Below are positions 5,921-45,161 of a DNA stretch of 64,000 nt, piece after piece. A program made the position numbers and the translations under genes. This stretch comes from an uncultured Paracoccaceae bacterium (GTDB lineage Bacteria > Pseudomonadota > Alphaproteobacteria > Rhodobacterales > Rhodobacteraceae). The notes beneath the pieces were generated by a model. That model was given only the letters and a program-made list of their open reading frames with translations. It was not told where the DNA came from and made no database searches. How positions within the stretch are numbered: position 1 is the stretch's first letter; the number at the start of each line of letters is the position of its first letter. The stretch lies in assembly GCA_947503175.1 (NCBI GenBank), contig CANNCO010000002.1, forward strand, positions 248,001 through 312,000, in the 5' to 3' direction.

Positions 5921-6646
5921 TTGACGCAGACATCTTCGCAAACAGTATCGCGCAGCGGCGGCCCAACGCCCGCCCATCTTCGGGCCGTTCTGGCAGAGCT
6001 TGCCGCTGGCGGCACCACGCTCCCTCCGGAGCGTGAACTGGTGGAACAACTGGGTGTTCCGCGCTCCCGTTTGCGCAGGGTTCTGGCGGAAATGCGTGAA
6101 GCCGGGCACCTGCCACCGGCACAGGTCGGACGCCGGACGACCCGGGAAGGCAGCATGCAGACCGACACACTCGCACGCCTCGCCAATCCGACCGATGTCA
6201 TCGAATTGCGTCTCATCCTGGAACCGCAGTTTGCGCGGCTTGCGGCCGTCCGCGCGTCGGCGCTTGAAATTGCCCGAATCACCAAAGCCGCGGCAAGCGG
6301 GCCGGACGAGGATTACGGCGCGCCAGACCTGACATTCCATCTCGAGATTGCGAGCGCCTCCCGCAACGCACTGGGCCGCGAGCTTTACAACATCCTGCGA
6401 CAGGTCGGAGCGGATGCGCGTGTGCGCCTGCCGGCGCGAAGACCGCTTTGCCCGAAACGCCGCGAAGCGCGCGATGCCGAACACATGCGTATTGCCCGCG
6501 CCATCTCGGAACGTGATCCGGAACGCGCCGAAGACTGTATGCGTGCACATCTTTCAAGCGTCCAGGCTCTTGTCATGAAAAGAATTTCTCCCGAGATCGC
6601 AGATACATCCAAGACAGCCACCACCGATGCTGCACACGCAACGTGA
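5921..6646 (+). CDS. GntR-family (FadR/FCD) transcriptional regulator
   Basis: A 241-residue regulator with an N-terminal winged helix around residues 15-70 (LPPERELVEQLGVPRSRLRRVLAEM, read in two parts). The C-terminal helical FCD ligand-binding domain begins near VIELRLILEPQFARLAA, and its metal- or ligand-binding histidines appear in LTFHLEIA and EHMRIARAI. The start is TTG at 5921, with GAGGA six bases upstream; no ATG is available before the winged helix. FCD regulators usually repress catabolic genes until an organic acid binds. It lies between two GMC oxidoreductase genes, divergent from the first and 21 bp ahead of the second, so it probably controls both. Confidence 0.85.
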   Translation: MTQTSSQTVSRSGGPTPAHLRAVLAELAAGGTTLPPERELVEQLGVPRSRLRRVLAEMREAGHLPPAQVGRRTTREGSMQTDTLARLANPTDVIELRLILEPQFARLAAVRASALEIARITKAAASGPDEDYGAPDLTFHLEIASASRNALGRELYNILRQVGADARVRLPARRPLCPKRREARDAEHMRIARAISERDPERAEDCMRAHLSSVQALVMKRISPEIADTSKTATTDAAHAT

Positions 6647-29679: not shown

Positions 29680-29716
29680 TGTAAGCTCTTGCATTTTGCA
29701 TATGTAAGCGCTTACA
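29680..29716. promoter_or_regulatory. Tandem LacI-type operators
   Basis: A perfect 14-bp palindrome TGTAAGCGCTTACA occupies 29703-29716. A second copy with two mismatched positions, TGTAAGCTCTTGCA, occupies 29680-29693, 23 bp away centre to centre. The central CG and AAGCGCTT core is the classic LacI/PurR-type half-site arrangement. Both lie between the LacI start (29609) and hpsN (29884), so they can repress both promoters. Confidence 0.75.
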
Positions 29717-29883
29717 TCTGCCGACAAATCGACTCAGTCAAGAGCAAACCATGCATCGTTCAGCTTCAGGATCGCGACACGGGCTATCTCGCATCCATCG
29801 CACCGATCTTGATGGGGCTCGTTTCGTCTATGCCAGCCACTCAGGCCCCCTGCTCCCCGAAAACCAGAATTAGGACGACCTTC

Positions 29884-31191
29884 ATGCCTCGTGAATACCT
29901 GAAAAAGGCCAGCCTGACCCCGAAATCCGATGCCACCGAAGTTCATGAGACGGTCAAGACCATCCTTGCGGATATCGAGGCGGGCGGAGATGCGACGGCA
30001 TTGGAATATGCCGCAAAATTCGATCGTTATGACGGCAACGTCCTTCTGATGCAGGACGAGATCGATGCGGCCTGTGCGCTCGTGCCGGAAAAGCTCAAAC
30101 AGGATATCCGGTTCGCCCATGACAATGTGAAGCGTTTTGCCGAGATGCAGAAAGGCACCGTTTCAGATGTCGAGATGGAGATCGTGCCCGGTATGATCGC
30201 CGGTCAGAAAGTGATCCCGGTCGATGCAGCGGGCTGCTATGTGCCGGGTGGCAGGTATAGCCACATCGCTAGCGCGATCATGACGGTCACAACGGCCAAG
30301 GTTGCCGGATGCCACCACATAACGGCTTGTTCGCCGCCGCGCCCGGAGTCAGGCGTTGCACCCGCCATCGTCTATGCGGCGCATATTTGCGGTGCGGACA
30401 AGATCATGGCGATGGGCGGCGTTCAGGGCGTGGCGGCAATGTCCTTTGGCCTGTTCGGACTGCCCAAGGCCAATATCCTCGTCGGCCCAGGCAACCAGTT
30501 TGTCGCCGAAGCAAAGCGTATCCTTTATGGCCGCGTGGGCATCGACATGATCGCCGGACCGACCGACAGCCTGATCCTTGCCGACAGCGGCGCGGATGCG
30601 CATATCGTCGCCACCGACCTCGTCAGTCAGGCCGAACATGGCTACAACTCGCCGGTCTGGCTCGTCACCGACAACCGTCCGCTCGCCGAACAGGTCATGG
30701 AGGAAGTTCCGAAACTGATCGAAGATCTGCCGGAACTGAACCGCGAAAATGCGAAAGCCGCGTGGCGCGACTATGCCGAGGTGATCCTTTGCAATGACCG
30801 CGAGGAGATGGCGGCAACGTCGGACGATTACGCACCAGAGCATCTGACGGTACAGGCCGATGATCTTGACTGGTGGCTGAAGCGGCTCACCTGCTATGGC
30901 TCTCTGTTTCTGGGCGAAGAAACCACTGTCTCCTACGGCGACAAGGCCACGGGCACGAACCACGTTTTGCCAACCTCAGGCGCAGCGAGCTACACAGGCG
31001 GCCTGAGCGTGCACAAGTACATGAAGATCGTCACCTGGCAGCGCGCGACCAGAGAAGGTGCAAAGCCGGTCGCAGAGGCAACAGCGCGCATCTCACGTCT
31101 GGAGGGGATGGAAGGCCATGCCCGCGCCGCGGATGTACGGCTTGCCAAGTATTTTCCCGGCGAAAACTTCGACCTCTCGGCAGATGGGTGA
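29884..31191 (+). CDS. hpsN: Sulfopropanediol (DHPS) 3-dehydrogenase, histidinol-dehydrogenase fold
   Basis: A 436-residue member of the histidinol dehydrogenase superfamily. It shows GCYVPGGRYSHIASAIMT, GGVQGVAAMSFGLFG, VGPGNQFVAEAKR, IDMIAGPTDSLILAD and the zinc/substrate region DLVSQAEHGYNSPVWLV. The closing segment YGDKATGTNHVLPTSGAASYTGGLSVHKYMK, in parts, is that of the HpsN group rather than of biosynthetic HisD, as I recall it from Ruegeria. HpsN oxidises (R)-DHPS to (R)-sulfolactate with two NAD. The ATG at 29884 was chosen because upstream in-frame sequence shows no family similarity. The operon continues with overlapping SDR and zinc dehydrogenase genes (hpsO, hpsP) and sulfopyruvate decarboxylase, which supports the assignment. 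Confidence 0.85.
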   Translation: MPREYLKKASLTPKSDATEVHETVKTILADIEAGGDATALEYAAKFDRYDGNVLLMQDEIDAACALVPEKLKQDIRFAHDNVKRFAEMQKGTVSDVEMEIVPGMIAGQKVIPVDAAGCYVPGGRYSHIASAIMTVTTAKVAGCHHITACSPPRPESGVAPAIVYAAHICGADKIMAMGGVQGVAAMSFGLFGLPKANILVGPGNQFVAEAKRILYGRVGIDMIAGPTDSLILADSGADAHIVATDLVSQAEHGYNSPVWLVTDNRPLAEQVMEEVPKLIEDLPELNRENAKAAWRDYAEVILCNDREEMAATSDDYAPEHLTVQADDLDWWLKRLTCYGSLFLGEETTVSYGDKATGTNHVLPTSGAASYTGGLSVHKYMKIVTWQRATREGAKPVAEATARISRLEGMEGHARAADVRLAKYFPGENFDLSADG

Positions 31192-31945
31192 TCCCCGCAG
31201 CCTCTTTGACCTGACCGGCCGTGTCGCCTGCGTAACCGGGGCAAGTTCGGGCCTTGGCCGTCGCGCAGCCACGATTCTGGCAGGCGCGGGCGCCCAAGTC
31301 GTCGGCGTTGCCCGGCGCGAGGAGGCGCTCAAGGCATGGCAGGTCGAGACCGGGCCCAATGCGGAGATCGTGGTCGCCGATGTTGCCAACCGCGACGCGG
31401 TCGGCGCACTCCGCGATGCGGTTTCCGCACCTTTCGGGTCTCCGGACATTCTCGTTCATGCGGCTGGTGTGAACACGCGCGAAGCGGCAGATGAGGTAAC
31501 GCCAGAAGGATGGGATCGAACGATCGCGCTTAATCTGACGGCACCGTTCTTTGTCAGCCAGGCGCTTGTGCCTGGGATGCGCGCGAAAGGCTGGGGCCGG
31601 ATCGTCAACTTCGCCTCGCTCCAGACATATCGCGCCTTTCCCGGCGGCATCTCCTATGGCGCGACCAAAGCCGGCATCGGTCAGTTGACCCGCGCGATGG
31701 CCGAAGCCTGGTCGCGCGACGGCATTACCGCCAATGCAATTGGCCCGGGCTTCTTTCCAACAGAACTCACCGAAGCGGTCTTTGCCGACCCCGAGCGGTC
31801 AGCACGGAATGCCTCCCAGACCTGCCTTCTGCGGAATGGACGCCTCGACGATCTAGACGGCCCGCTTCTGTTTCTGTGTTCGGACGCTTCCGCCTATGTC
31901 ACCGGACAGGTCATCATGGTCGATGGAGGGTTCACCGCAAAATGA
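31184..31945 (+). CDS. hpsO: Short-chain dehydrogenase/reductase, HpsO-like
   Basis: A 253-residue classical SDR. TGASSGLGRRAA binds NAD near residue 18, the catalytic serine lies in NFASLQ, and the YGATK pair gives Tyr and Lys. The C-terminal VTGQVIMVDGGFTAK is typical. The ATG at 31184 lies inside the end of hpsN, overlapping by eight bases. In Roseobacter-group bacteria HpsO is thought to interconvert the enantiomers of DHPS through a C2 ketone together with HpsP. This role is assigned from gene order and not from a specific residue. Confidence 0.75.
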   Translation: MGDPRSLFDLTGRVACVTGASSGLGRRAATILAGAGAQVVGVARREEALKAWQVETGPNAEIVVADVANRDAVGALRDAVSAPFGSPDILVHAAGVNTREAADEVTPEGWDRTIALNLTAPFFVSQALVPGMRAKGWGRIVNFASLQTYRAFPGGISYGATKAGIGQLTRAMAEAWSRDGITANAIGPGFFPTELTEAVFADPERSARNASQTCLLRNGRLDDLDGPLLFLCSDASAYVTGQVIMVDGGFTAK

Positions 31946-32922
31946 AAGCCCTTGTCTATGACGGCGTCGAAACGCTCTCCTACCGCGATGTACCAGACCC
32001 CCGCCCCGCACCGGGTGAGCACCTGATCAAAGTCGAAGCTGTCGGCATCTGCGGATCGGACATGCATGCCTACCTCGGCCACGATGCGCGCCGCCCTGCC
32101 CCGCTGATCCTCGGCCACGAAGCTGCGGGAACAATCGAAGGCGGTCCGAAAAACGGAAACCGTGTCACAGTCAACCCACTGGTCACCTGCGGGACCTGTC
32201 CGGCTTGTATAAACGAACGCGAAAATCTTTGTCCGAGCCGCGAGATCATTTCGATGCAGCCGCGCGAAGGTGCATTCGCACAATTTCTCGCAATTCCGGA
32301 AAGCAATCTGGTCGATGTCCCGGACGATCTGTCCCTGTCCAAGGCAGCGCTTGCCGAACCGCTCGCGGTGAGTTGGCATGCCGCACGGCTTGCGCTGGCC
32401 GCACTGCATCCGCAGGCCGAACGACGGGCTCTTGTCATCGGGGGCGGGGCGATCGGGCTGGCGGCAGCCTTGGCGCTCCGCGCGATGGACGTGGCCGAAG
32501 TGACCATTGTCGAGCCCAGCGCGAAGCGTCGTACGGTACTGGCAGACGCCTTCGGACCGGATGTTGTGTCAGAGGAAAAAGGCCAGTTTCCGATAGTGAT
32601 CGACGCAGTTGGGTACGCGGCAACACGCGCCGTTGCCTCTGCAAGCGCCGAACCTGGCGGAGTAATCGCCCATGTGGGGTTGGGCGAAGACACCGGTGGC
32701 CTTGATGTGCGCCGGATGACCTTGCAGGAGATTACCTTTATCGGGACCTATACCTACACCGCCCGCGATTTTCGCGACACGGCTCAGGCCATTTTCGATG
32801 GCCGGCTGGGCACCCTCGACTGGTTTGAAACTCACTGCCTGAGCGATGGTGGTCAGGCGTTCAAAGACTTGCAGAACGGCGTCGTGGCAGCACCCAAGAT
32901 CATACTGGATCCCTGGGGCTAA
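31942..32922 (+). CDS. hpsP: Zinc-dependent alcohol dehydrogenase, HpsP-like
   Basis: A 326-residue medium-chain dehydrogenase. The catalytic-zinc region is GICGSDMHAYLGHD and GHEAAG. The structural-zinc loop has the four cysteines of CGTCPACINERENLC, and the cofactor loop is VIGGGAIGLAAA. The ATG at 31942 overlaps the SDR stop (ATGA). With HpsO it would shuttle DHPS enantiomers through a ketone using opposite stereochemistry. A general threonine- or sorbitol-dehydrogenase-like activity cannot be excluded by sequence alone. Confidence 0.75.
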   Translation: MKALVYDGVETLSYRDVPDPRPAPGEHLIKVEAVGICGSDMHAYLGHDARRPAPLILGHEAAGTIEGGPKNGNRVTVNPLVTCGTCPACINERENLCPSREIISMQPREGAFAQFLAIPESNLVDVPDDLSLSKAALAEPLAVSWHAARLALAALHPQAERRALVIGGGAIGLAAALALRAMDVAEVTIVEPSAKRRTVLADAFGPDVVSEEKGQFPIVIDAVGYAATRAVASASAEPGGVIAHVGLGEDTGGLDVRRMTLQEITFIGTYTYTARDFRDTAQAIFDGRLGTLDWFETHCLSDGGQAFKDLQNGVVAAPKIILDPWG

Positions 32923-32951
32923 GCGAACAATACAAACGATGGAGATAGAAG

Positions 32952-33362
32952 ATGTATAGCAAAATCCTTGTCCCGATGGCTCTGGACCACGACATTTCTC
33001 CAAAGACGTTGGAGATCGCCAAGGCCCTCGGTACGTCCGATTGCGAAATCATCGCCCTTCATGTCTACGAGGCCCCGCCAAGCTCGGTCGGCGCCTTTCT
33101 TGACGACAATGCAGTCAAGGCCGGGTTCGAGAAGGCTGGCGAGAAGCTCAACGAAAAGCTGGCAGGTATCCCTGACGTCAAGCGCAAGATCATGACAGGT
33201 CATTCTGCCCGGACGATCATCGACTTCGCCGCAGACAACGGCATCGATTGCATCGTCATCGGCTCGCACAAGCCCGGACTGAGCGACTACTTCCTTGGCT
33301 CGACCGCCGCGCGTGTGGTCCGCCATGCGGGATGTGCCGTGCATGTCCATCGCGACGGCTGA
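32952..33362 (+). CDS. Universal stress protein (UspA family)
   Basis: A 136-residue UspA-domain protein. It opens MYSKILVPMALDHD and has the ATP-binding G-2x-G-9x-G-S/T pattern near the end, in IGSHKPGLSDYFLGSTAARVVRHA (in parts). It lies in the middle of the DHPS operon, between hpsP and comD. A Usp gene inside a sulfonate catabolic operon suggests a stress or energy-sensing role linked to growth on the substrate, but the exact job is unknown. Confidence 0.88.
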   Translation: MYSKILVPMALDHDISPKTLEIAKALGTSDCEIIALHVYEAPPSSVGAFLDDNAVKAGFEKAGEKLNEKLAGIPDVKRKIMTGHSARTIIDFAADNGIDCIVIGSHKPGLSDYFLGSTAARVVRHAGCAVHVHRDG

Positions 33363-33414
33363 ACCCGCTAACCGGCCTCTGGCCCAACCGCCAAATCACG
33401 AAAGGCAATCCAGA

Positions 33415-33921
33415 ATGGATATCAACAAGAAGATCACGGACGATCTTGTTGCGAACGATATCTCCTTTGTCACGACAGTGCCCTGCAAACAGCTGGCCGG
33501 CGTGATCGACGAGATCGACAATTGCGACGAAATCTACCACATCCCCTCGAACAAGGAAGATGAGGGGATGGGGCTGTGCGCCGGAGCATTCATGGGCGGC
33601 AAACGGCCCGCCATCATCATGCAGAACACCGCGATCGGCGTGACGATCAATACACTGGCCACACTGATCCAGTACTACCGGATGCCCCTGCCCATGCTGA
33701 TCTCATACCGGGGCGAATTGCGCGAGCCCGTGGCCTGTCAAGTTGAAATGGCGGTCCACACCAAGGCGCTGCTGGCCCAGATGAACATCCCGACCTACCA
33801 CTTCCATCATCAGAAGGATGTGGAAGAGCTGGATATGATCCTGAAATATACCTTCATGTGCAACAAGCCGGTCGCGATCCTGACCGATGCCAACTTCTGG
33901 GGAGGCTATGGCGACCAATGA
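33415..33921 (+). CDS. comD: Sulfopyruvate decarboxylase, alpha subunit
   Basis: A 168-residue protein matching the PYR-type half of a thiamine-diphosphate enzyme. The catalytic-glutamate region is IPSNKEDEGMGLCAGAFMGG, and LISYRGELREP is a strong ComD/phosphonopyruvate-decarboxylase family signature. It pairs with the beta subunit, whose gene overlaps its stop by four bases. Together they turn sulfopyruvate into sulfoacetaldehyde and CO2. A phosphonopyruvate decarboxylase would be a fused single protein, so the split arrangement and the sulfonate context favour ComDE. Confidence 0.85.
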   Translation: MDINKKITDDLVANDISFVTTVPCKQLAGVIDEIDNCDEIYHIPSNKEDEGMGLCAGAFMGGKRPAIIMQNTAIGVTINTLATLIQYYRMPLPMLISYRGELREPVACQVEMAVHTKALLAQMNIPTYHFHHQKDVEELDMILKYTFMCNKPVAILTDANFWGGYGDQ

Positions 33922-34472
33922 TCCGTTCCGAGATTCTAAAAGAAATCGCACCGATCCTCCGGGACCAACTGGTGGTCTGCAATATCGGCATTCCGAGCCA
34001 GGAGTTGCACGCCATCGATGACCAGCCGACGAACTTCTACATGCTGGGCACCATGGGGCTGGCCTCGTCCATCGGTCTGGGGCTTGCACTGGTACAACCC
34101 AAGCCGGTAATTGCCATCGACGGCGACGGTTCGGTTCTGACCAACCTCGGCACCCTGCCGACCATTGCCAACAACACGGCAAACAACTTCATCCTGCTCA
34201 TTATCGACAATGGCAGCTACGGCTCGACCGGCGACCAGCCGACCTATGCCGGGCAAAAGACGTCTCTGGCTGCTGTGGCCACGGCGTGCGGTTGCGATCA
34301 TGTGGTCGAGTGTCAAGCTGAAGACACCGGCAAGGTCCTGCAAGAGGCGCTCGACAGCAGTGAGATGACGGTGATTGTCTGCAAATGCGAAAGCGGCAAC
34401 GCCAAGAACCCGGTCATCACTATGGACCCGGTGGTGATCCGCGACCGGTTCATGAAGGCCGTCCAAGCCTGA
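33918..34472 (+). CDS. comE: Sulfopyruvate decarboxylase, beta subunit
   Basis: A 184-residue PP-type half of the thiamine-diphosphate enzyme. The ThDP/Mg binding motif runs from GDGSVLTNLGTL to NNFILLIIDNGSYGSTGDQPT, quoted in two parts. The FYMLGTMGLASSIGLGLAL segment is typical of the beta subunit. The ATG overlaps the comD stop (ATGA). It would complete the route from DHPS to sulfoacetaldehyde. The downstream xsc gene is not in this window. Confidence 0.88.
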   Translation: MIRSEILKEIAPILRDQLVVCNIGIPSQELHAIDDQPTNFYMLGTMGLASSIGLGLALVQPKPVIAIDGDGSVLTNLGTLPTIANNTANNFILLIIDNGSYGSTGDQPTYAGQKTSLAAVATACGCDHVVECQAEDTGKVLQEALDSSEMTVIVCKCESGNAKNPVITMDPVVIRDRFMKAVQA

Positions 34473-34475
34473 CCA

Positions 34476-35576
34476 ATGGGGGCCGCCGCGCAAATCCAAT
34501 CGGCCGAGGATGCGCGACGGCTTGCCCGTCGCCGCCTGCCCTGGATGGTATTCGATTACATTGATGGTGCGGCTGGCGCGGAACAGGGTGCCGCGCGCAA
34601 CAGGGCAGCGCTTGATGCAATGACGCTGAAACCGCGCATTCTGCGGGATGTCAGCGAACGGTCGCTGACCAAAAGTCTCTTTGGCAGGACCCCCACTCGC
34701 CCCTTCGGCATCGCGCCCATGGGGATGTGCAACCTGTCCGAACCGGGCGCCGATCTGATGCTCGCCCGCCTCGCCGCGCGCCATTCTGTTCCCGTAGGCG
34801 TCTCGACCGTCGCGTCGACCCCGATGGAGCGGATGATCGAGGTTGCGGACGGCAACGCTTGGTTTCAACTTTACTTCAGCGGCGATGGGACCGGGTCATT
34901 CAAACTGATCGAACGGGCAAAGAACGCCGGATACGAAACGCTGATCCTGACTGTCGACGTGCCGGAGGTCGGGCGCAGACCGCGCGAATTGCGACATGGG
35001 TTCAAGATGCCCTTCCGTATCGGACCGCGCCAGTTCGTGGATTTCGCTCTGCACCCCCGCTGGTCCCTGTTCACCCTGCTCAACGGCAGGCCCGAAATGG
35101 CCAATTTCCAGATGGAGGGCTACGAATTCGACCGGACAGAAAGCCGGGCGAAGGCCGATTGGTCGACCCTCGCCCGCATTCGCGATGCCTGGCCCGGTCA
35201 TCTCGTGGTCAAAGGTGTCCTCAATGCCGAAGATGCTCTCCGTCTGCAAAACGCAGGCGTAGACGCCATTCAGGTCTCGAGCCACGGTGCGCGCCAGCTG
35301 GAAAGCGCCCCGGCCCCGTTCGAGGTCCTCCCCGAGATCCGCGCCGCTCTGGGCAATGACTATCCCCTTTTCTATGACAGTGGCCTTCGCTCCGGCGAAG
35401 ACGCTCTCAAGGCCCTAACGTCCGGGGCGGATTTCGTGTTCTTCGGACGCGTGTTCCAGTTCGCCATCGCCGCTGGCGGCGAGGACGGATTGTCCCGCAT
35501 CTGGGAGGTACTCAGCGAAGAGCTAAGCATTGCAATGGCGCAAACCGGGCTCATCGACCTGAATTTCAGCGCATGA
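34476..35576 (+). CDS. FMN-dependent alpha-hydroxy acid dehydrogenase, candidate sulfolactate dehydrogenase
   Basis: A 366-residue TIM-barrel flavoprotein of the lactate/glycolate oxidase family. Landmarks are FDYIDGAAG, GIAPMGMCNLSEPG, WFQLYF, LTVDVPEVGRRPRELR and the catalytic-histidine region VSSHGARQLESAP (usual form SNHGGRQLD), then YDSGLRSGEDALKAL. It lies three bases after comE. In the pathway sulfolactate must be oxidised to sulfopyruvate before ComDE, and no SlcD- or ComC/SlcC-type enzyme is seen here. An FMN enzyme doing this step is the natural inference but is unproven; a general lactate or glycolate dehydrogenase is the alternative. Confidence 0.8.
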   Translation: MGAAAQIQSAEDARRLARRRLPWMVFDYIDGAAGAEQGAARNRAALDAMTLKPRILRDVSERSLTKSLFGRTPTRPFGIAPMGMCNLSEPGADLMLARLAARHSVPVGVSTVASTPMERMIEVADGNAWFQLYFSGDGTGSFKLIERAKNAGYETLILTVDVPEVGRRPRELRHGFKMPFRIGPRQFVDFALHPRWSLFTLLNGRPEMANFQMEGYEFDRTESRAKADWSTLARIRDAWPGHLVVKGVLNAEDALRLQNAGVDAIQVSSHGARQLESAPAPFEVLPEIRAALGNDYPLFYDSGLRSGEDALKALTSGADFVFFGRVFQFAIAAGGEDGLSRIWEVLSEELSIAMAQTGLIDLNFSA

Positions 35577-38078: not shown

Positions 38079-39578
38079 CTATATAGCGGGAGCCTCGATC
38101 AAGTCAGCCAGTTTCAGGCGTTGGATTTTTCCAGACGGCCCCTTTGGCAACTCATCAAGGAAATGAATCACGTCCGGCGTCTTGAAGGCGCCCAGTCTCT
38201 CCTGACAGATGCCGATAAGATCGGGCCCGGTGATTGGTGAACCGCTCTTCACCCGTACTGCGGCTTCGACCGTTTCGCCGTAGCGGTCGGACTTTCTCGC
38301 GAAAGCCGCCGCCTCGATGACGTCTGGATGGGCATAGAGCGCTTCATCAACCTCGCGGGGCGCTATGTTTTCTCCGCCCTTGATAATCAGTTCCTTAAGT
38401 CTGCCGGTCACGAAGATATACCCGTCCTCGTCCATGCGGGCGAGATCCCCGGTGCGGAGCCAACCTTTGCGGAAGGTGGCCTTTGTGGCCTTGGGGTTGT
38501 TCAGGTATCCCAGCATAACGTTCGGGCCACGCACGACGATTTCACCTTCGCGACCGTCGTCGACCCGGGTGCCATCTGGCCCTTGTATTTCGACATCGCA
38601 TCCATATCCGAACCCCGGGGAACCGATCTTACGGATACCCGGCGGAAGAGGATTGGACAGGATCTGGGCTGCCGTCTCGGTCAGGCCCATCGTTTCCACG
38701 ATTGGCACGGAAAACCGATGCTCAAATGCGGACTGTGTCTCCACGGCCAGCGCCGATGAGGCGGACCTGCCAAACCGCAGCCGGTCACGGCAGGCGTCAT
38801 CAGGCTCGGCTTCCCCGTGGAGGAGATGGGAAATGATTGTCGGTACTGCGGAAAACCAAGTGACCTCGCTTCGTGAAGCCTGCTCCCAGAAGCGTGACGC
38901 GGAAAACCGCGACACGACCGCCAAAGACCCGCCCGAAACGAGCGCCCCCATGACGGTCACGCACAGACCGTTGATGTGATAGATCGGGAGTATACAGAAG
39001 CCGCGATCTTCTTCGCCAAGTTCGTGCGCTGTGGCTGTTGTCCATCCACCGGCGAGGAGGCTTGCATGGGAATGCAGGACACCCTTAGGGCGGCCTGTCG
39101 TCCCTGACGTGTACATAAGCAGCGCGTGATCGTCCGGCGCGATTTCATGCAGTTCGACACCAGCGACATCCGCTGGGCTGATCCGGGTAACGCTTGTCGC
39201 ATTCGCAGCGTCAAAAAGATCGCTGCAGTCCGGGTGCACGAAGGCAAATCGCGCGCCAGAGTGATCGAGCGCGTAAGAGATCGCGTCACGGCCAGCGGCC
39301 AGATTGATTACCGTGGCCCGGAATCCGCCCACCAGTGTGCCATATAGCGCGACTAAACCGTCACGACTGTTGGGCGACAAAATCGCGACACTCTCGCCTT
39401 TCTCAACGCCAAGATGGGTAAGGTTCCTGGCGAGAGAACTCGCTTCGGCCTGAAGGGTCGGCCAGTCCATTTCGGTCCCTATTTCGGGAAAGACGAAGGC
39501 AATACCGCCAAGATCGGCGCGCTTCGCCAGCCAGTCCCGGACCGTACCCTCGGGCGGCCTGTCGGGAGACACCATCAT
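38079..39578 (-). CDS. sauT: Acyl-CoA synthetase, probable sulfoacetate-CoA ligase (SauT type)
   Basis: A 499-residue ANL-family ligase. The P-loop motif YTSGTTGRPKG is near residue 160. MGLTETAAQI is the A5 motif. The A8 hinge is near GWLRTGDLARMDEDGYIFVTGR (in parts), and the catalytic lysine lies in PKGPSGKIQR. It activates an acid to its CoA thioester with ATP. The start overlaps the stop of the acylating aldehyde dehydrogenase, so the two are made together. Ligase plus acylating dehydrogenase is the SauT-SauS arrangement for sulfoacetate to sulfoacetaldehyde. The nearby DHPS module converges on the same product. The substrate is inferred from this pairing; other short acids are possible. 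Confidence 0.65.
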   Translation of the reverse strand: MMVSPDRPPEGTVRDWLAKRADLGGIAFVFPEIGTEMDWPTLQAEASSLARNLTHLGVEKGESVAILSPNSRDGLVALYGTLVGGFRATVINLAAGRDAISYALDHSGARFAFVHPDCSDLFDAANATSVTRISPADVAGVELHEIAPDDHALLMYTSGTTGRPKGVLHSHASLLAGGWTTATAHELGEEDRGFCILPIYHINGLCVTVMGALVSGGSLAVVSRFSASRFWEQASRSEVTWFSAVPTIISHLLHGEAEPDDACRDRLRFGRSASSALAVETQSAFEHRFSVPIVETMGLTETAAQILSNPLPPGIRKIGSPGFGYGCDVEIQGPDGTRVDDGREGEIVVRGPNVMLGYLNNPKATKATFRKGWLRTGDLARMDEDGYIFVTGRLKELIIKGGENIAPREVDEALYAHPDVIEAAAFARKSDRYGETVEAAVRVKSGSPITGPDLIGICQERLGAFKTPDVIHFLDELPKGPSGKIQRLKLADLIEAPAI

Positions 39579-40978
39579 TTCCCAGCCGTCTCCCAGTAGT
39601 CGGAAAAGATGTCATCGAGGCTCGGTTCGCGTGGCGGGATCTCCCGCACGATCTTGGTCGATTGCAGAAAATGCTTCCAGTGCACATTCTCGTCGATGGC
39701 ATTATCCCCCCAGCTTCCGCATCCCATGGACAGCGAGAACGGCATTCCGTTGGTGAAAGAGCCGCCGGTTGCGAAGGTGTGCGCCTGATTGACGATCACC
39801 CGGCTGGTCGGGATCGCTCGCGCGAGCATCATCGGGCGTGAGGGGTCAGTTGAGTGCAGGCCGACGGAATGGCCCGCACCCTGGTGCAACTGAATGTCGC
39901 GTGCGATCCGCACCGCATCCTCGAAGTCGGTAGCGCCATAGAGCGCGAGAACGCGGCTCAGCTTTTCGCCCGACAGAGGGTGCTCGGGACCGATCCCGCT
40001 GGTCGGGACCGCGATATACTCCGTGCCCTCCGGCACCTGGCCCTCAAGTCCTAACGCCGAAAGCATCTTGTCCGCATCCTGTGCGATGACATGGCGGTTC
40101 AGATGGCCGTCGGGCCAGAGCGATGCCACGACGGAGGCCTCGTCGTCCACAAGCGCGCCGCCCGCTTTTTCCATGGCTTCGATGAACGCCTCGCGCAGGA
40201 CGTCTACGACCACCACCGCGTTTTCTGACGAGCACGACGTCGCGTTGTCGAAGGTCTTGGAGGCACGGATTTTCTCGGCCGCCGCCGCTAGATCGGCGGT
40301 TTCGTCGACGATGACGGTAACATTGCCGGTCCCTACCGCCACAGCGGGCGTTCCCGCCGTCTGTGCCCGATGCACGTTGTTCTGACTGCCCGTGGCGACA
40401 ATCATGTCGCAGGTTTCCATCAGCCGTTGGGTCTTCTCTTTCGAACCCGGGGCAGGCACCATCTGGACGAGTTCGGGGTCTTCGCCGATCTTGGCGAACT
40501 CGGCATGAATGAATTCAAGCAACAGTTCGCAGCAGGCCACGCCTTTCGGTGACGGCGCAACCACGATCGAGTTTCCGCATTTCAGCGCATTGATGATGTT
40601 GTTCGCCGGCGTCGCTGCGGGGTTGGTGGACGGTACGACAGCCCCCACGACGCCTTTGGGCCGCGCAACCTCTGTAATTCCGGTTTCGGGGTCATCGCGG
40701 ATGACGCCGCAGGTCACGACGCCCTGAATGTCACGAAGCAGTCCCAGTGTCTTGCGATAGTTCTTGATTATCTTGTCGGGGACGTTTCCGAGCCCCGTTG
40801 TCTCGACCGCCAGTTCCGCCAGGGCGCGATTTCGTCCCGGTTCCATGATCGCCCAGCCGATGGCCTGGGCGGCACGGTCATAGCGCTCTTGACTGCCTTC
40901 GGCCTCATACTTCGCCTGAGCATCACGGGACCGTGCAACTACGGCATCGAGTTCGGAAATGGGATCGGCGGCGTTCAT
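39575..40978 (-). CDS. sauS: Acylating aldehyde dehydrogenase, probable sulfoacetaldehyde dehydrogenase (SauS type)
   Basis: A 467-residue CoA-acylating ALDH. It has the EutE/AdhE-like segments VVPSTNPAATPANNIINALKCGN (in parts) and VATGSQNNVHRAQTAGTPAVAVG (in parts). The catalytic cysteine lies in FDNATSCSSENAVVV, and the C-terminal glycine-rich TFATGGSFTNGMPFSLSMGCGSWG is given in parts. It would reduce sulfoacetyl-CoA with NADPH to sulfoacetaldehyde. The ATG at 40978 is preferred over an upstream in-frame start that lacks family similarity. ATGA overlap with the ligase gene supports the pair. Butyraldehyde or propionaldehyde dehydrogenase activities are the main alternatives. Confidence 0.65.
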   Translation of the reverse strand: MNAADPISELDAVVARSRDAQAKYEAEGSQERYDRAAQAIGWAIMEPGRNRALAELAVETTGLGNVPDKIIKNYRKTLGLLRDIQGVVTCGVIRDDPETGITEVARPKGVVGAVVPSTNPAATPANNIINALKCGNSIVVAPSPKGVACCELLLEFIHAEFAKIGEDPELVQMVPAPGSKEKTQRLMETCDMIVATGSQNNVHRAQTAGTPAVAVGTGNVTVIVDETADLAAAAEKIRASKTFDNATSCSSENAVVVVDVLREAFIEAMEKAGGALVDDEASVVASLWPDGHLNRHVIAQDADKMLSALGLEGQVPEGTEYIAVPTSGIGPEHPLSGEKLSRVLALYGATDFEDAVRIARDIQLHQGAGHSVGLHSTDPSRPMMLARAIPTSRVIVNQAHTFATGGSFTNGMPFSLSMGCGSWGDNAIDENVHWKHFLQSTKIVREIPPREPSLDDIFSDYWETAGK

Positions 40979-41035: not shown

Positions 41036-42004
41036 TCAGAGACCGGCCAGAAGCTCTCTCAGAGTCTCTTCGCGCGCCTTCCACATTTCGATAACCTCGT
41101 CACGGGTCATGATGTGCATCGGGCTGCCGCCGGCCTTCATCCTTCCGGCCACGCGGCCGTTCTCGAACATCGTCGGTACGGTTTCGGCCAGCTTGTCGAT
41201 GATCGGCTGCGGCGTTCCCTTGGGCACCATTACACCGCGGAAGTTTACACTGGCGTTGTCGATGTCGAATCCCTGCTCCTTCATGGTGGGTACATCCGGC
41301 AGGAACTCGTTTCGCTCATTGTCGAATACGCCAAGGATCTTGACGTTGCCCGCGTCGCGCGCGCGAAATGCATCGGAAAGGTTGTTGACCCCTCCAAGGA
41401 CTTCACCCGCGATCACCGCTTTCATTGCCCCGGCGCCACCGGCGTTGTTGGGGATGTAGGCGAGTTTCACGCCTGCGGCCTTCTCAAGCTGAAGCGCGGC
41501 GATGTGATGCCCCACGAAGAGCCCCGCGCCCGAGAACGTCAGCCCACCGGGGTTTGCCATTGCGTAATCCACAACGTCCTGCATCGAATTGAACTCGCTG
41601 TCGGCGGCTACGACGAAGACCGCCGGATCTGCGCCCCAGTTTGCAATGGGCTCGAAACTGTCGGCGCCGTACTCGACACCGCCTTCTATGGACTGTGCGA
41701 TGAAATGGGGAATGTTGTATGCGCCAAGCGTGTACCCATCCGCTTCGGCCTGCGTCGCAAACCAGTTCCAGCCCACGCGCCCACCGGCACCTGGTTTGTT
41801 GATGATCGCGATCGGCATGCCAAGGGCATCCTCGTTCCCTGCCGTCATCGTCACGATGCGCGCCTGAAAGTCGGTGGCGCCTCCCGCTCCATAGCTGACC
41901 ATCAGCATGATGGGGCGCTCGGGAAAGTTTTCATGGCCATCGGCCGAGACTGCACCTGTCAGCCCCATCAGGGCGATAGAGGCGGCTGCAATTAGGTTCT
42001 TCAT
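41036..42004 (-). CDS. TctC-family periplasmic solute-binding protein (TTT transporter)
   Basis: A 322-residue binding protein of the Bug/TctC family, with a signal peptide ending AVSADG near residue 22. Opening motifs FPERPIMLMVSYGAGGATDFQAR, in parts, are typical of the family, as is PNNAGGAGAMKAVIAGEV later on. The ATG at 42004 starts the signal peptide; the upstream in-frame extension lies over the TctB gene. It would capture the substrate for the TctAB permease. Next to SauT/SauS the expected ligand is sulfoacetate; the family also binds di- and tricarboxylates. Confidence 0.88.
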   Translation of the reverse strand: MKNLIAAASIALMGLTGAVSADGHENFPERPIMLMVSYGAGGATDFQARIVTMTAGNEDALGMPIAIINKPGAGGRVGWNWFATQAEADGYTLGAYNIPHFIAQSIEGGVEYGADSFEPIANWGADPAVFVVAADSEFNSMQDVVDYAMANPGGLTFSGAGLFVGHHIAALQLEKAAGVKLAYIPNNAGGAGAMKAVIAGEVLGGVNNLSDAFRARDAGNVKILGVFDNERNEFLPDVPTMKEQGFDIDNASVNFRGVMVPKGTPQPIIDKLAETVPTMFENGRVAGRMKAGGSPMHIMTRDEVIEMWKAREETLRELLAGL

Positions 42005-42045
42005 GGTTTTCCTCCCTTGGAAGTGTGATCTGCCGCTGTTGCGGT

Positions 42046-42510
42046 TCAGAAGAAAATCTCTCGTGGTGTGAAGACGTTCAGAAGCATCCCGAAAAGTCCG
42101 TACATGACGGCAAGATATCCCGCCGTGATGATCAGGCGTTTGACCCAGGTCTTGACCTTGCCGTGCGGCGCGGGATCGTAGAGGGACAACAGTATGAAAA
42201 AGGTGATCGTGGACGCGGTGTAAAAGCCCAGTGCTTCGGCCGCCCAAAACACAAAGATCAGCGCCACGATCAATCCGGGCGCAATGTTCTTCATCGCCTC
42301 TGCCGTTAGGCCGTTTCCGACTGTGGTGCGCCCTAACAGGGCCTTTCCGAAAGTCCAGAGCGCAAGCAACACGAAGACGGTCGAGATGATGCGCGGGAAC
42401 AGGAACGCCGCGGCAGGTTCAGCGGTGTAGGAAACATAAGCAACCCATACGCCCACTGCAGCTACGATTCCGCTTGCCAGGATGTGCTGGTTTCGCGGCA
42501 GATCGGTCAT
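42046..42510 (-). CDS. TctB-family small permease subunit (TTT transporter)
   Basis: A 154-residue membrane protein with four predicted helices, matching the TctB subunit. Helices cover about residues 8-25, 35-50, 75-105 and 125-145. The gene overlaps the TctA stop by four bases. With TctA it forms the secondary transporter fed by the periplasmic TctC. Confidence 0.85.
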   Translation of the reverse strand: MTDLPRNQHILASGIVAAVGVWVAYVSYTAEPAAAFLFPRIISTVFVLLALWTFGKALLGRTTVGNGLTAEAMKNIAPGLIVALIFVFWAAEALGFYTASTITFFILLSLYDPAPHGKVKTWVKRLIITAGYLAVMYGLFGMLLNVFTPREIFF

Positions 42511-44036
42511 GACAGCGCCTCCTCCTTGGCCACGGCGTCATCTTTCGTGATGTAGCGACGGCTGCGCAGCTCCATCCAGATCGAATAACCGACCGAAGCG
42601 ACGACAATTGCGATCAGCAGCAAGTTTAGCGTGCCCGTAAAGAAATAGGAGCCGATGCTGGAGGTGGCGTTCGCGATCATCGACCCCTGTACGAAGTTCG
42701 CCTCGGCAATAGGGCCAAGGATGAGGCCAAGAACCAGCGGGGCAGCCGACAAGCCGAAGCGCTCAAGAAAATACATTCCCGTGCCAAGCGCCGCCATGAT
42801 GTACACATCGCCCATCGAGTTCTGCACCGAGTAACTTCCGAAGACGGCCAGCCCCAGCACGACAGCCGCCATCACCGCGTTCGGCACCTGCGCAACGCGA
42901 GCGGCAAGACCGGCAATGTAGAGACCGAAGACGCACATCAGGATCTGCCCGATGAGCATCGAGTTGATGAACGTCCAGGCGACATCCGGATGGTTGTCGA
43001 AAAGGTCGCTGCCCGGAAAGATGCCATGGATCAGCAAACCGCCAAGCAGCACCGCCGCCGTTGGCGAACCGGGAATGGAAAGCGTCAAGAGCGGCACAAG
43101 CGACGGCCCAACCATCGCGTTGTTCGCGCTTTCGGCGGCAATCACTCCTTCGCTATGACCGGTGCCGAACTTGTCCCGTTCAGGGCTCATCTTTCTTGAC
43201 TGGTCGTAGGCCACAAGCCCCGCGATCTGCCCCCCGACGCCGGGGATCAGTCCAATGATCGAACCGGTGATCGTCCCGATCGTGAGCGCACGAACTCGGC
43301 TGAACACTTCTTTGAAGGCTTTGGAAATCGGATGCCTCTCGACCGACAGCACCTCGGCATCGAACGGCGTCCGCCCTTTTGCAAACATCGTGATCACTTG
43401 CGGAATGGCGAACAGGCCGATCAGCGCGGGGATGATGTTGATCCCTCCCGACACGCTCGAATGGAAGATAAAGCGCTGTGCCCCCATGATGTCATCGAAT
43501 CCGATGGTGGCCAGCCAAAGCCCGATGCAGCCCGACAGAAGCCCCTTCACCACCGAACTAGAATCGAGCGAGCCAATGATCGTTACGCCAAGGATCGCCA
43601 GCCAGAAAAGATGCGACGGACCAAACGCCAGCGCCCATTTCGCCAAAAGCGGCGTCAGGAAGATCAGGAGCAGAACGCCGAAGATGCCGCCGACTGCCGA
43701 AGCCAGGAACGAAAGCTGAAGCGCCTGAGCGCCTTTGCCCTTCTGCGCCATCGTGTGCCCATCAAGCGTCGTGGCAATGTTTGCGGGTGCGCCGGGGATT
43801 TTCAGCAAGATGGCACTGACCGCACCACCGGCGACAGTTGAGGTATAGGCCGCCCCAAGGAGAATAAGACCTTGAGTCGGTTCCAACTGGAACGTGAACG
43901 GGATTAGCAATGCGACGGCCATGGTCGGTGACAAGCCGGGCGTCGCACCCAGTATCAGCCCTCCAACCGTGCCGATCAAGAGCAGCATGAAGTTGAAAGG
44001 CGTAAAGACGTCGCCGAAGTAGAGCAGAAACTCCAA
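42507..44036 (-). CDS. TctA-family large permease subunit (TTT transporter)
   Basis: A 509-residue permease with about twelve helices. The TctA signature regions are present: GTVGGLILGATPGLSPTMAVALLIP in parts, GGAVSAILLKIPGAPANIAT, PGVGGQIAGLVAYDQSRKMS and SIPGSPTAAVLLGGLLIHGI. It is the channel-forming subunit. The gene starts the operon TctA-TctB-TctC-SauS-SauT, divergent from a LacI gene. The 102-base gap to that gene holds a palindrome suited to LacI control. Confidence 0.92.
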   Translation of the reverse strand: MEFLLYFGDVFTPFNFMLLLIGTVGGLILGATPGLSPTMAVALLIPFTFQLEPTQGLILLGAAYTSTVAGGAVSAILLKIPGAPANIATTLDGHTMAQKGKGAQALQLSFLASAVGGIFGVLLLIFLTPLLAKWALAFGPSHLFWLAILGVTIIGSLDSSSVVKGLLSGCIGLWLATIGFDDIMGAQRFIFHSSVSGGINIIPALIGLFAIPQVITMFAKGRTPFDAEVLSVERHPISKAFKEVFSRVRALTIGTITGSIIGLIPGVGGQIAGLVAYDQSRKMSPERDKFGTGHSEGVIAAESANNAMVGPSLVPLLTLSIPGSPTAAVLLGGLLIHGIFPGSDLFDNHPDVAWTFINSMLIGQILMCVFGLYIAGLAARVAQVPNAVMAAVVLGLAVFGSYSVQNSMGDVYIMAALGTGMYFLERFGLSAAPLVLGLILGPIAEANFVQGSMIANATSSIGSYFFTGTLNLLLIAIVVASVGYSIWMELRSRRYITKDDAVAKEEALS

Positions 44037-44084: not shown

Positions 44085-44114
44085 AATGAAAATAGTTTTG
44101 CAAATGTTTTCATT
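44085..44114. promoter_or_regulatory. Palindrome, probable operator of the LacI/TctA divergent promoter
   Basis: An AT-rich dyad with AATGAAAA at 44085-44092 and TTTTCATT at 44107-44114 lies between the TctA start (44036) and the LacI-type gene (44138). The inner part, TAGTTTTGCAAATG, keeps a further half-site GCAAA. The position and symmetry suit a LacI-family repressor site. Confidence 0.6.
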
Positions 44115-44177
44115 TTTGCCGGGGATGAAGCATTCAAATGCCTAAAAAGCAAATAAAAAAAAGCGGATATCATTGCT

Positions 44178-45161
44178 GTGGCAAGGGCGGCGCGTGTCTC
44201 GCCGTCCACTGTCTCGCGCAGCTTCAACCACCCCGATCTGGTAAAGCCTGCGACCCGCAAAAAAATCGATGCTGCTGTGCGCCGGCTTGGCTATATCCGC
44301 AACCGGGCAGCGCAAACCATCCACGGGATCCGAAGTGGAACCATCGGTCTCATCGTGCCGACCGTGGATCAGGCGATTTTCGCCGAGTTGATCCAGAGTT
44401 TCTCGGAGGCAGTGGAGGAGATGGGCTTCACGATCCTATTGGCGTCCCATGGCTACAGTCTCGAACGAGAGTACGCTTTGACCCGAAAGATGCTGGAACA
44501 CCGCGTCGACGGAATTGGCCTGATCGGGATCGAGCACTCCGATGACACCTACGAACTCCTGGCGCAACAGAACATCCCGGCACTCCTGCTCTGGAACTAC
44601 TCCAAGGACGCGCCTCTGCCATGCGTCGGTTCCGACAATTACCGCGCCGGGTATCTTATCGGAAAGCACGTTGCACAACTCGGCCATGAGAAGATTGCGG
44701 CTGTCTTTCCGCCGCTTGTGGGGAATGATCGAGCGCTGCTCAGAATGAAGGGCGTCGCCGAGGCGCTAATGAAAGACGGCCGCAGCATCCACGAGAGCTG
44801 GCGACTGGAAACGCCCTACAGCATCACAGCCGCGAAACTGGCGGTTGCTTCTCTGATCGACGCTGCCGATCGACCAACGGCAATCATCTGTGGCAATGAC
44901 GTTCTGGCGTGGGGCGCGCTGCATGCTCTGGCGCGCGGAGGTTTCGACGTGCCGGGCGAAGTAACGGTAACGGGCATCGGCGACTTCAGCGGATCAAGGG
45001 ATTTCGAGCCCTCCCTGACAACGGTCCGCATTCCCGCGCGCGCAATTGGCGAGAAGGCCGCAGATGCGATCGTTCAATTGATAACGACGGAAGCTCAGCA
45101 GAAAGTCGGTGCCCTGGTGATGCCTGAACTCTTGGTGCGTCAGACCAGCGGCATGCGCTGA
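44178..45161 (+). CDS. LacI-family transcriptional regulator, apparent 5' frameshift
   Basis: The continuous frame starts at a GTG at 44178 and gives 327 residues. The HTH reads VARAARVSPSTVSRSFNHP, and the ligand domain ends TTVRIPARAIGEKAADAIVQL. The first HTH helix is cut short. An ATG at 44138 reads MPKKQIKK and would continue into ADIIAVARAARVSPSTVSR if one A of an A8 run (44155-44162) were removed. That is exactly a normal LacI N-terminus. Either the sequence has one extra A, or the gene is disrupted, or slippage restores the frame. It would control the TTT-SauST operon through the nearby palindrome. Confidence 0.8.
   Translation: MARAARVSPSTVSRSFNHPDLVKPATRKKIDAAVRRLGYIRNRAAQTIHGIRSGTIGLIVPTVDQAIFAELIQSFSEAVEEMGFTILLASHGYSLEREYALTRKMLEHRVDGIGLIGIEHSDDTYELLAQQNIPALLLWNYSKDAPLPCVGSDNYRAGYLIGKHVAQLGHEKIAAVFPPLVGNDRALLRMKGVAEALMKDGRSIHESWRLETPYSITAAKLAVASLIDAADRPTAIICGNDVLAWGALHALARGGFDVPGEVTVTGIGDFSGSRDFEPSLTTVRIPARAIGEKAADAIVQLITTEAQQKVGALVMPELLVRQTSGMR

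Follow-up and report, generated by a model that had tools for sequence, protein, structure and literature searches.

The frame break at the 5′ end of a LacI-type regulator gene

A regulator gene of the LacI/PurR type, located in the window (the 64,000-nucleotide stretch of DNA that was analyzed), is interrupted at its 5′ end by a run of eight A, which leaves its ATG start codon exactly one base out of frame with the DNA-binding domain. The frame break is confirmed and is an ordinary class of event; we assign a probability of roughly one half to its being a recent one-base expansion of the A tract that has left a weakened or nearly lost repressor. The features of the gene are as follows.

44138-44162, plus strand: ATG and lysine-rich arm with which the regulator gene originally began, one base out of frame, with the ATG at 25 nt against 24 nt in 46 of 84 orthologous 5′ ends
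44154-44156, plus strand: TAA that closes the LacI frame on its 5′ side, immediately ahead of the helix-turn-helix (HTH), from the sequence and the stop-to-match listing
44155-44162, plus strand: frame-shifting A8 run, one of only 20 A/T runs of at least eight in the assembly, where such runs are rare
44163-45161, plus strand: frame of LacI/PurR type, intact up to the stop and covering the HTH and a sugar-binding-protein-like domain, by PF00356, PF00532, PF13377 and PurR 2pua
44178-45161, plus strand: longest ORF with an ordinary start (GTG), from the ORF list, the PurR alignment and the Shine-Dalgarno energy

The ATG at 44138-44140 precedes the A8 run at 44155-44162, which is followed by GCGGATATCATTGCTGTG. 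The ORF that begins at this ATG runs from 44138 to 44545 (135 aa) and contains no LacI features after MPKKQIKK, while the LacI frame is open throughout from the GTG at 44178 to 45161 (327 aa). The distance of 25 nt from ATG 44138 to the GCG at 44163 gives the one-base offset, and the window sequence and its ORFs confirmed the preliminary description, in which the ATG was read as MPKKQIKK followed by a frame shift at the A8. A TAA codon occupies 44154-44156 of the LacI frame, only KK lying between this stop and the ADII of the HTH, and therefore no upstream sequence can feed that frame. Between the TAA and GTG 44178 the LacI frame contains no ATG, GTG, or TTG, leaving the gene with no complete N-terminal HTH that can be read from an ordinary start. 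Two other codons were tried as starts and rejected, ATC at 44169 (Shine-Dalgarno energy 0.6) and ATT at 44172 (−3.3), both of which lie inside helix 1.

A full-length protein might come from programmed −1 ribosomal frameshifting at the A8, and the resemblance of A AAA AAA to known −1 slippery sites counts in favor of this. A −1 shift, however, enters the third frame and not that of LacI, which requires +1, the loss of one A or the gain of two; with the 25-nt offset, this frame arithmetic rules the mechanism out, and we give it practically no weight.

The identity of the regulator was clear at the family level. PF00356, the LacI HTH model, matched the frame as it stands with 50.1 bits (cut-off 27) over positions 5-46 of 46, the ligand-binding domain matched PF00532 (102.4 bits) and PF13377 (91.4 bits), and the protein aligned with PurR (2pua) over residues 3-327 (E 6e-41). 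None of the 18 NCBIfam models listed for the regulator reached its cut-off, indicating that no named subfamily fits it. The genome has 13 LacI-family loci, and in a tally of starts that covers ten of them (L005, L010, and L011 being left out) nine have a start upstream of the HTH and the window gene is the tenth. A second run, of seven A, lies in frame in the regulator gene at 44259-44265, 104 bases further 3′, and 12 A/T runs of at least seven were counted in 464 kb.

Start positions in orthologous genes

Orthologues were gathered from several sources. Whole-genome sources gave any family match in 74 of 101 genomes, a match at E ≤ 1e-80 in 35 of 394, and 16 of 19 in one genus; from the E ≤ 1e-80 set, G227, G327, and G200 stand outside the locus comparison. 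GTDB contigs contributed 41 loci and plasmids nine records, seven of which were used. The resulting 93 loci reduced to 84 distinct 5′ ends once identical ones were merged, with L109 and L110 (37% identity) kept outside the counts as non-orthologues. The congener G001 had no orthologue at E ≤ 1e-50, a search of the genera of G113, G309, and G224 for further copies gave none that were new, and the nine plasmid records, all at 60-80% identity, included no close copy informative on the A count.

An in-frame ATG, GTG, or TTG was present at most 60 nt before the HTH in 80 of the 84 distinct 5′ ends, and in 46 of the 84 the start lies exactly 24 nt before the codon 3′ of the lysine-rich arm, the commonest distance, as against 25 nt for the ATG of the window. 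The one-base offset in the window is therefore no chance reading. These starts in the relatives, together with the better ribosome-binding energy of ATG 44138 (−5.7 against −3.3 for GTG 44178), indicate that the ancestral frame began at this ATG and that one A is extra. This intact frame in the orthologues bears out the earlier proposal that, with seven A, the reading would continue straight into the HTH.

The same comparison makes it very unlikely that GTG 44178 is the genuine start of a short, functional protein. Its 327-codon ORF is open and would miss only about five residues with respect to PurR, but the weaker Shine-Dalgarno sequence, the farther-upstream starts of the 80 orthologues, and the loss of part of helix 1 all speak against it. 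The GTG corresponds to PurR residue 6 in the alignment, so that the GTG form is without the lysine-rich arm and the first turn of helix 1, in agreement with the initial statement that this start costs part of the helix. Conservation of a GTG-initiated protein, which had been named as an observation that would count against a frame break, was not found in the relatives, which start farther upstream.

Within the 27 nt that precede the HTH, the longest run of A measured 3 to 8 over the 93 loci and was 5 or 6 in 64 of them, which provides a mutational substrate for expansion. Two loci had a run of seven and two a run of eight, these being the window and L074, where the run is in frame. Besides the window, neither an out-of-frame A8 nor any other out-of-frame run was present in the 93 loci (84 distinct 5′ ends), and therefore nothing points to slippage as a conserved device.

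Several loci had unusual 5′ ends of their own. L132 and L133, from Paracoccus plasmids, appeared to have similar breaks since their annotated start lies inside the HTH, yet both have an in-frame ATG upstream, and the late start is therefore a matter of annotation only; an apparent internal deletion in L108 is really a stretch of N in a metagenome-assembled genome. L064/L103 and L067 have no in-frame ATG, GTG, or TTG before the HTH; in its place stands an ATT that follows a strong match to the Shine-Dalgarno sequence (−6.8 and −9.5 kcal/mol), a candidate start codon in these two lineages. In L084 (uncultured Roseovarius sp. 1064-G) the ATG stands where it usually does, some 24 nt ahead of locus position 6001, but the third codon is TAA; an ATT and the HTH frame, unbroken, follow. 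It is a second case of a broken 5′ end, independent of the one in the window.

Sequencing error or recent insertion

The main rival is an error of sequencing or assembly, in which case the true genome has seven A and encodes a normal repressor. We regard this as a serious contender that is nevertheless somewhat unlikely. The break is a singleton at a homopolymer, one base away from a conserved architecture, in a gene that is otherwise perfect and under constraint and that has an intact operator, all of which an error would explain, and one category of singleton frameshifts is expected to consist of sequencing errors rather than genuine indels, as set out in PMC3711429. That a singleton frameshift looks just as such an error would also counts against a recent expansion. 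On the other side, none of 11 candidate frameshifts in 464 kb fell at A/T runs of at least six or G/C runs of at least five, as scored by a home-made codon-usage gene finder allowing frameshifts that recovers 24 of 50 planted insertions. All 11 candidates, on contig C2 of the genome (G000), lie away from homopolymers, and the number of events in segment B was 5 or 6, depending on the run. In addition, 7 of the 20 distinct A/T runs of at least eight in the 4.01-Mb assembly lie inside uninterrupted ORFs. These tests speak modestly against an assembly that is systematically poor at homopolymers and are compatible with a single wrong base.

The regulator gene showed no decay. In five three-way comparisons, with branch counts made by three-way parsimony on an assumed topology, the ratio of nonsynonymous to synonymous changes was 0.26-0.42 on the window branch and 0.53-1.00 on the sister branch, and no further stops occurred in the 327 codons of the regulator frame. 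An old pseudogene was rejected on this low ratio and the absence of further disabling changes. Either the extra A was gained very recently, or it is not real, or the cell tolerates it, and the absence of decay also fits a sequencing error or an efficiently rescued gene.

For a recent expansion, the following sequence of events is proposed. The lysine-rich 5′ end, with AAA AAA before the HTH, would have gained one A by replication slippage, putting the ATG out of frame, and the insertion would be very recent. The cell would then make little functional repressor, consisting of a protein begun at the GTG, with helix 1 clipped, and a minor full-length fraction translated from transcripts shorter by one A (or longer by two), and the operon would be partly derepressed as a result.

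Possible slippage at the A8 run

Residual rescue of the repressor by slippage is plausible. According to PMC3812077, E. coli bypassed indels of an 8A repeat (deletion of A, insertion of A or AA) at basal expression, and the E. coli transcripts presented in PMC5574713 argue for low slippage rescue. Since RNA polymerase slippage is possible and its rescue probably low, a weak repressor is expected and not a designed one.

The A8 could alternatively be a selected device, either with slippage setting a low repressor level or as a reversible A7/A8 phase switch in mixed populations. The slippage-prone 8A repeat in E. coli, the use of an A11 tract in this way in tssM (PMC4256274), and the persisting constraint on the regulator gene are in its favor. 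We nevertheless judge it unlikely, as the out-of-frame run occurs in no orthologue and PMC1088944, dealing with runs of nine, takes conserved ORF organization as the mark of functional use; such an organization, common to non-identical homologues, was not found among the 84 distinct 5′ ends. The three options first listed for this locus (a sequencing slip, a lost gene, or a slippage-controlled regulator) remain the right set, of which slippage control found no comparative support among the 93 loci. A leaky fuse on a catabolic repressor, with A8 slippage holding a few per cent or A7/A8 switching giving bet-hedged sulfoacetate use, is likewise quite doubtful. If the switching were true, some cells would be constitutive for sulfoacetate use, a bet-hedging of an organosulfonate pathway in a marine bacterium.

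The probable operator and the divergent, probable sulfoacetate operon

Between the ATG of the regulator and the point where a divergent tctA ORF first starts there are 101 nt, which hold a palindrome. The features of this region are as follows.

44089-44116, strand not assigned: imperfect palindrome ATGAAAATAG..TTGCAAATGTTTTCAT, operator-like and conserved, in the interval from tctA to the regulator; AAATGTTTTCAT is exact in 77 of 84 relatives
42507-44036, minus strand: TctA permease, divergent from the regulator (PF01970, 449.5 bits; syntenic in 37 of 39 loci)
42046-42510, minus strand: TctB (PF07331; synteny comparison)
41036-42007, minus strand: TctC substrate-binding protein (PF03401; synteny comparison)
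39575-40978, minus strand: SauS, acylating sulfoacetaldehyde dehydrogenase (NF047625, 652.9 bits, cut-off 600; 34 of 39 loci)
38079-39578, minus strand: acyl-CoA ligase, taken as SauT from its position (every match to an acyl-CoA ligase family below cut-off; role from context)

The palindrome ends in AAATGTTTTCAT, which is found unchanged upstream of those 77 of the 84 distinct orthologous 5′ ends, and the 14-mer GCAAATGTTTTCAT, a part of the palindrome, is single copy in the 464 kb read. The operator of the window is intact and agrees with the consensus of the relatives. The palindrome probably serves as operator to the regulator and to the transport operon alike.

TctA adjoins the regulator in 37 of the 39 contig loci and SauS is present in 34, some loci being too short to reveal it. 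The acyl-CoA ligase matched acyl-CoA ligase families only below their cut-offs and had no SauT model match. Together, tctABC, sauS, and the ligase gene probably serve sulfoacetate uptake and degradation, and the regulator is probably an autoregulated repressor of this divergent tctCBA-sauS-(sauT) operon. The window also encodes a sulfopyruvate decarboxylase beta subunit (TIGR03846, above cut-off), indicating that the region handles organosulfonates. Genes for a HisD-like dehydrogenase, sulfopyruvate decarboxylase, and lactate-dehydrogenase-like proteins lie beside the sulfoacetate operon at 29689-35576. This stretch presumably also encodes, to judge by the translations, an SDR and a zinc-type dehydrogenase, and it is probably a sulfopropanediol/sulfolactate pathway.

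If the A8 is real, nature has provided here a clean example of a single-base change in a tract prone to slippage, within a repressor whose operator hardly varies among relatives, so that the consequences for a single operon are directly measurable. If the A8 is an error, the gene deserves annotation as a full LacI-type regulator. Either way, the regulator and its operator form a conserved pair that offers a useful point of entry to sulfoacetate use in the Roseobacter group.

Comparison with known systems

The regulator resembles PurR and the LacI family in combining an HTH with a periplasmic-binding-protein-like domain, and differs in having its 5′ end out of frame. Clusters of SauS and SauT with a TTT transporter are described in PMC12625764 as putative sulfoacetate uptake and degradation clusters. 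The window holds the TctABC and SauS of such a sauST-TTT cluster, and its likeness to them extends to the joint presence of SauS, a CoA ligase, and TctABC, also reported there in Rhodobacterales bins, whereas the LacI-type regulator is absent from the main text of that paper. In Cupriavidus, a system controlled by SauR answers to sulfonatoacetate, as stated in PMC7057948.

Among slippage cases, the drift of M.HaeIII described in PMC3812077 shares with the window a one-base change at a repeat of the 8A class in an otherwise intact coding sequence, although there the bypass was measured in E. coli and the window case is known from sequence alone. PMC1088944 gives six cases of genes disrupted at 9A or 9T whose product slippage would restore, and these are similar in having a disrupted ORF with single-ORF homologues in other species, whereas the run in the window is of eight A in a GC-rich genome (61%). 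In tssM1 of Citrobacter rodentium (PMC4256274), a poly-A run likewise stands at the frame break, but that tract is A11 and its function and ratio are presented there as experimental results, in contrast to the window gene, which was read from DNA only.
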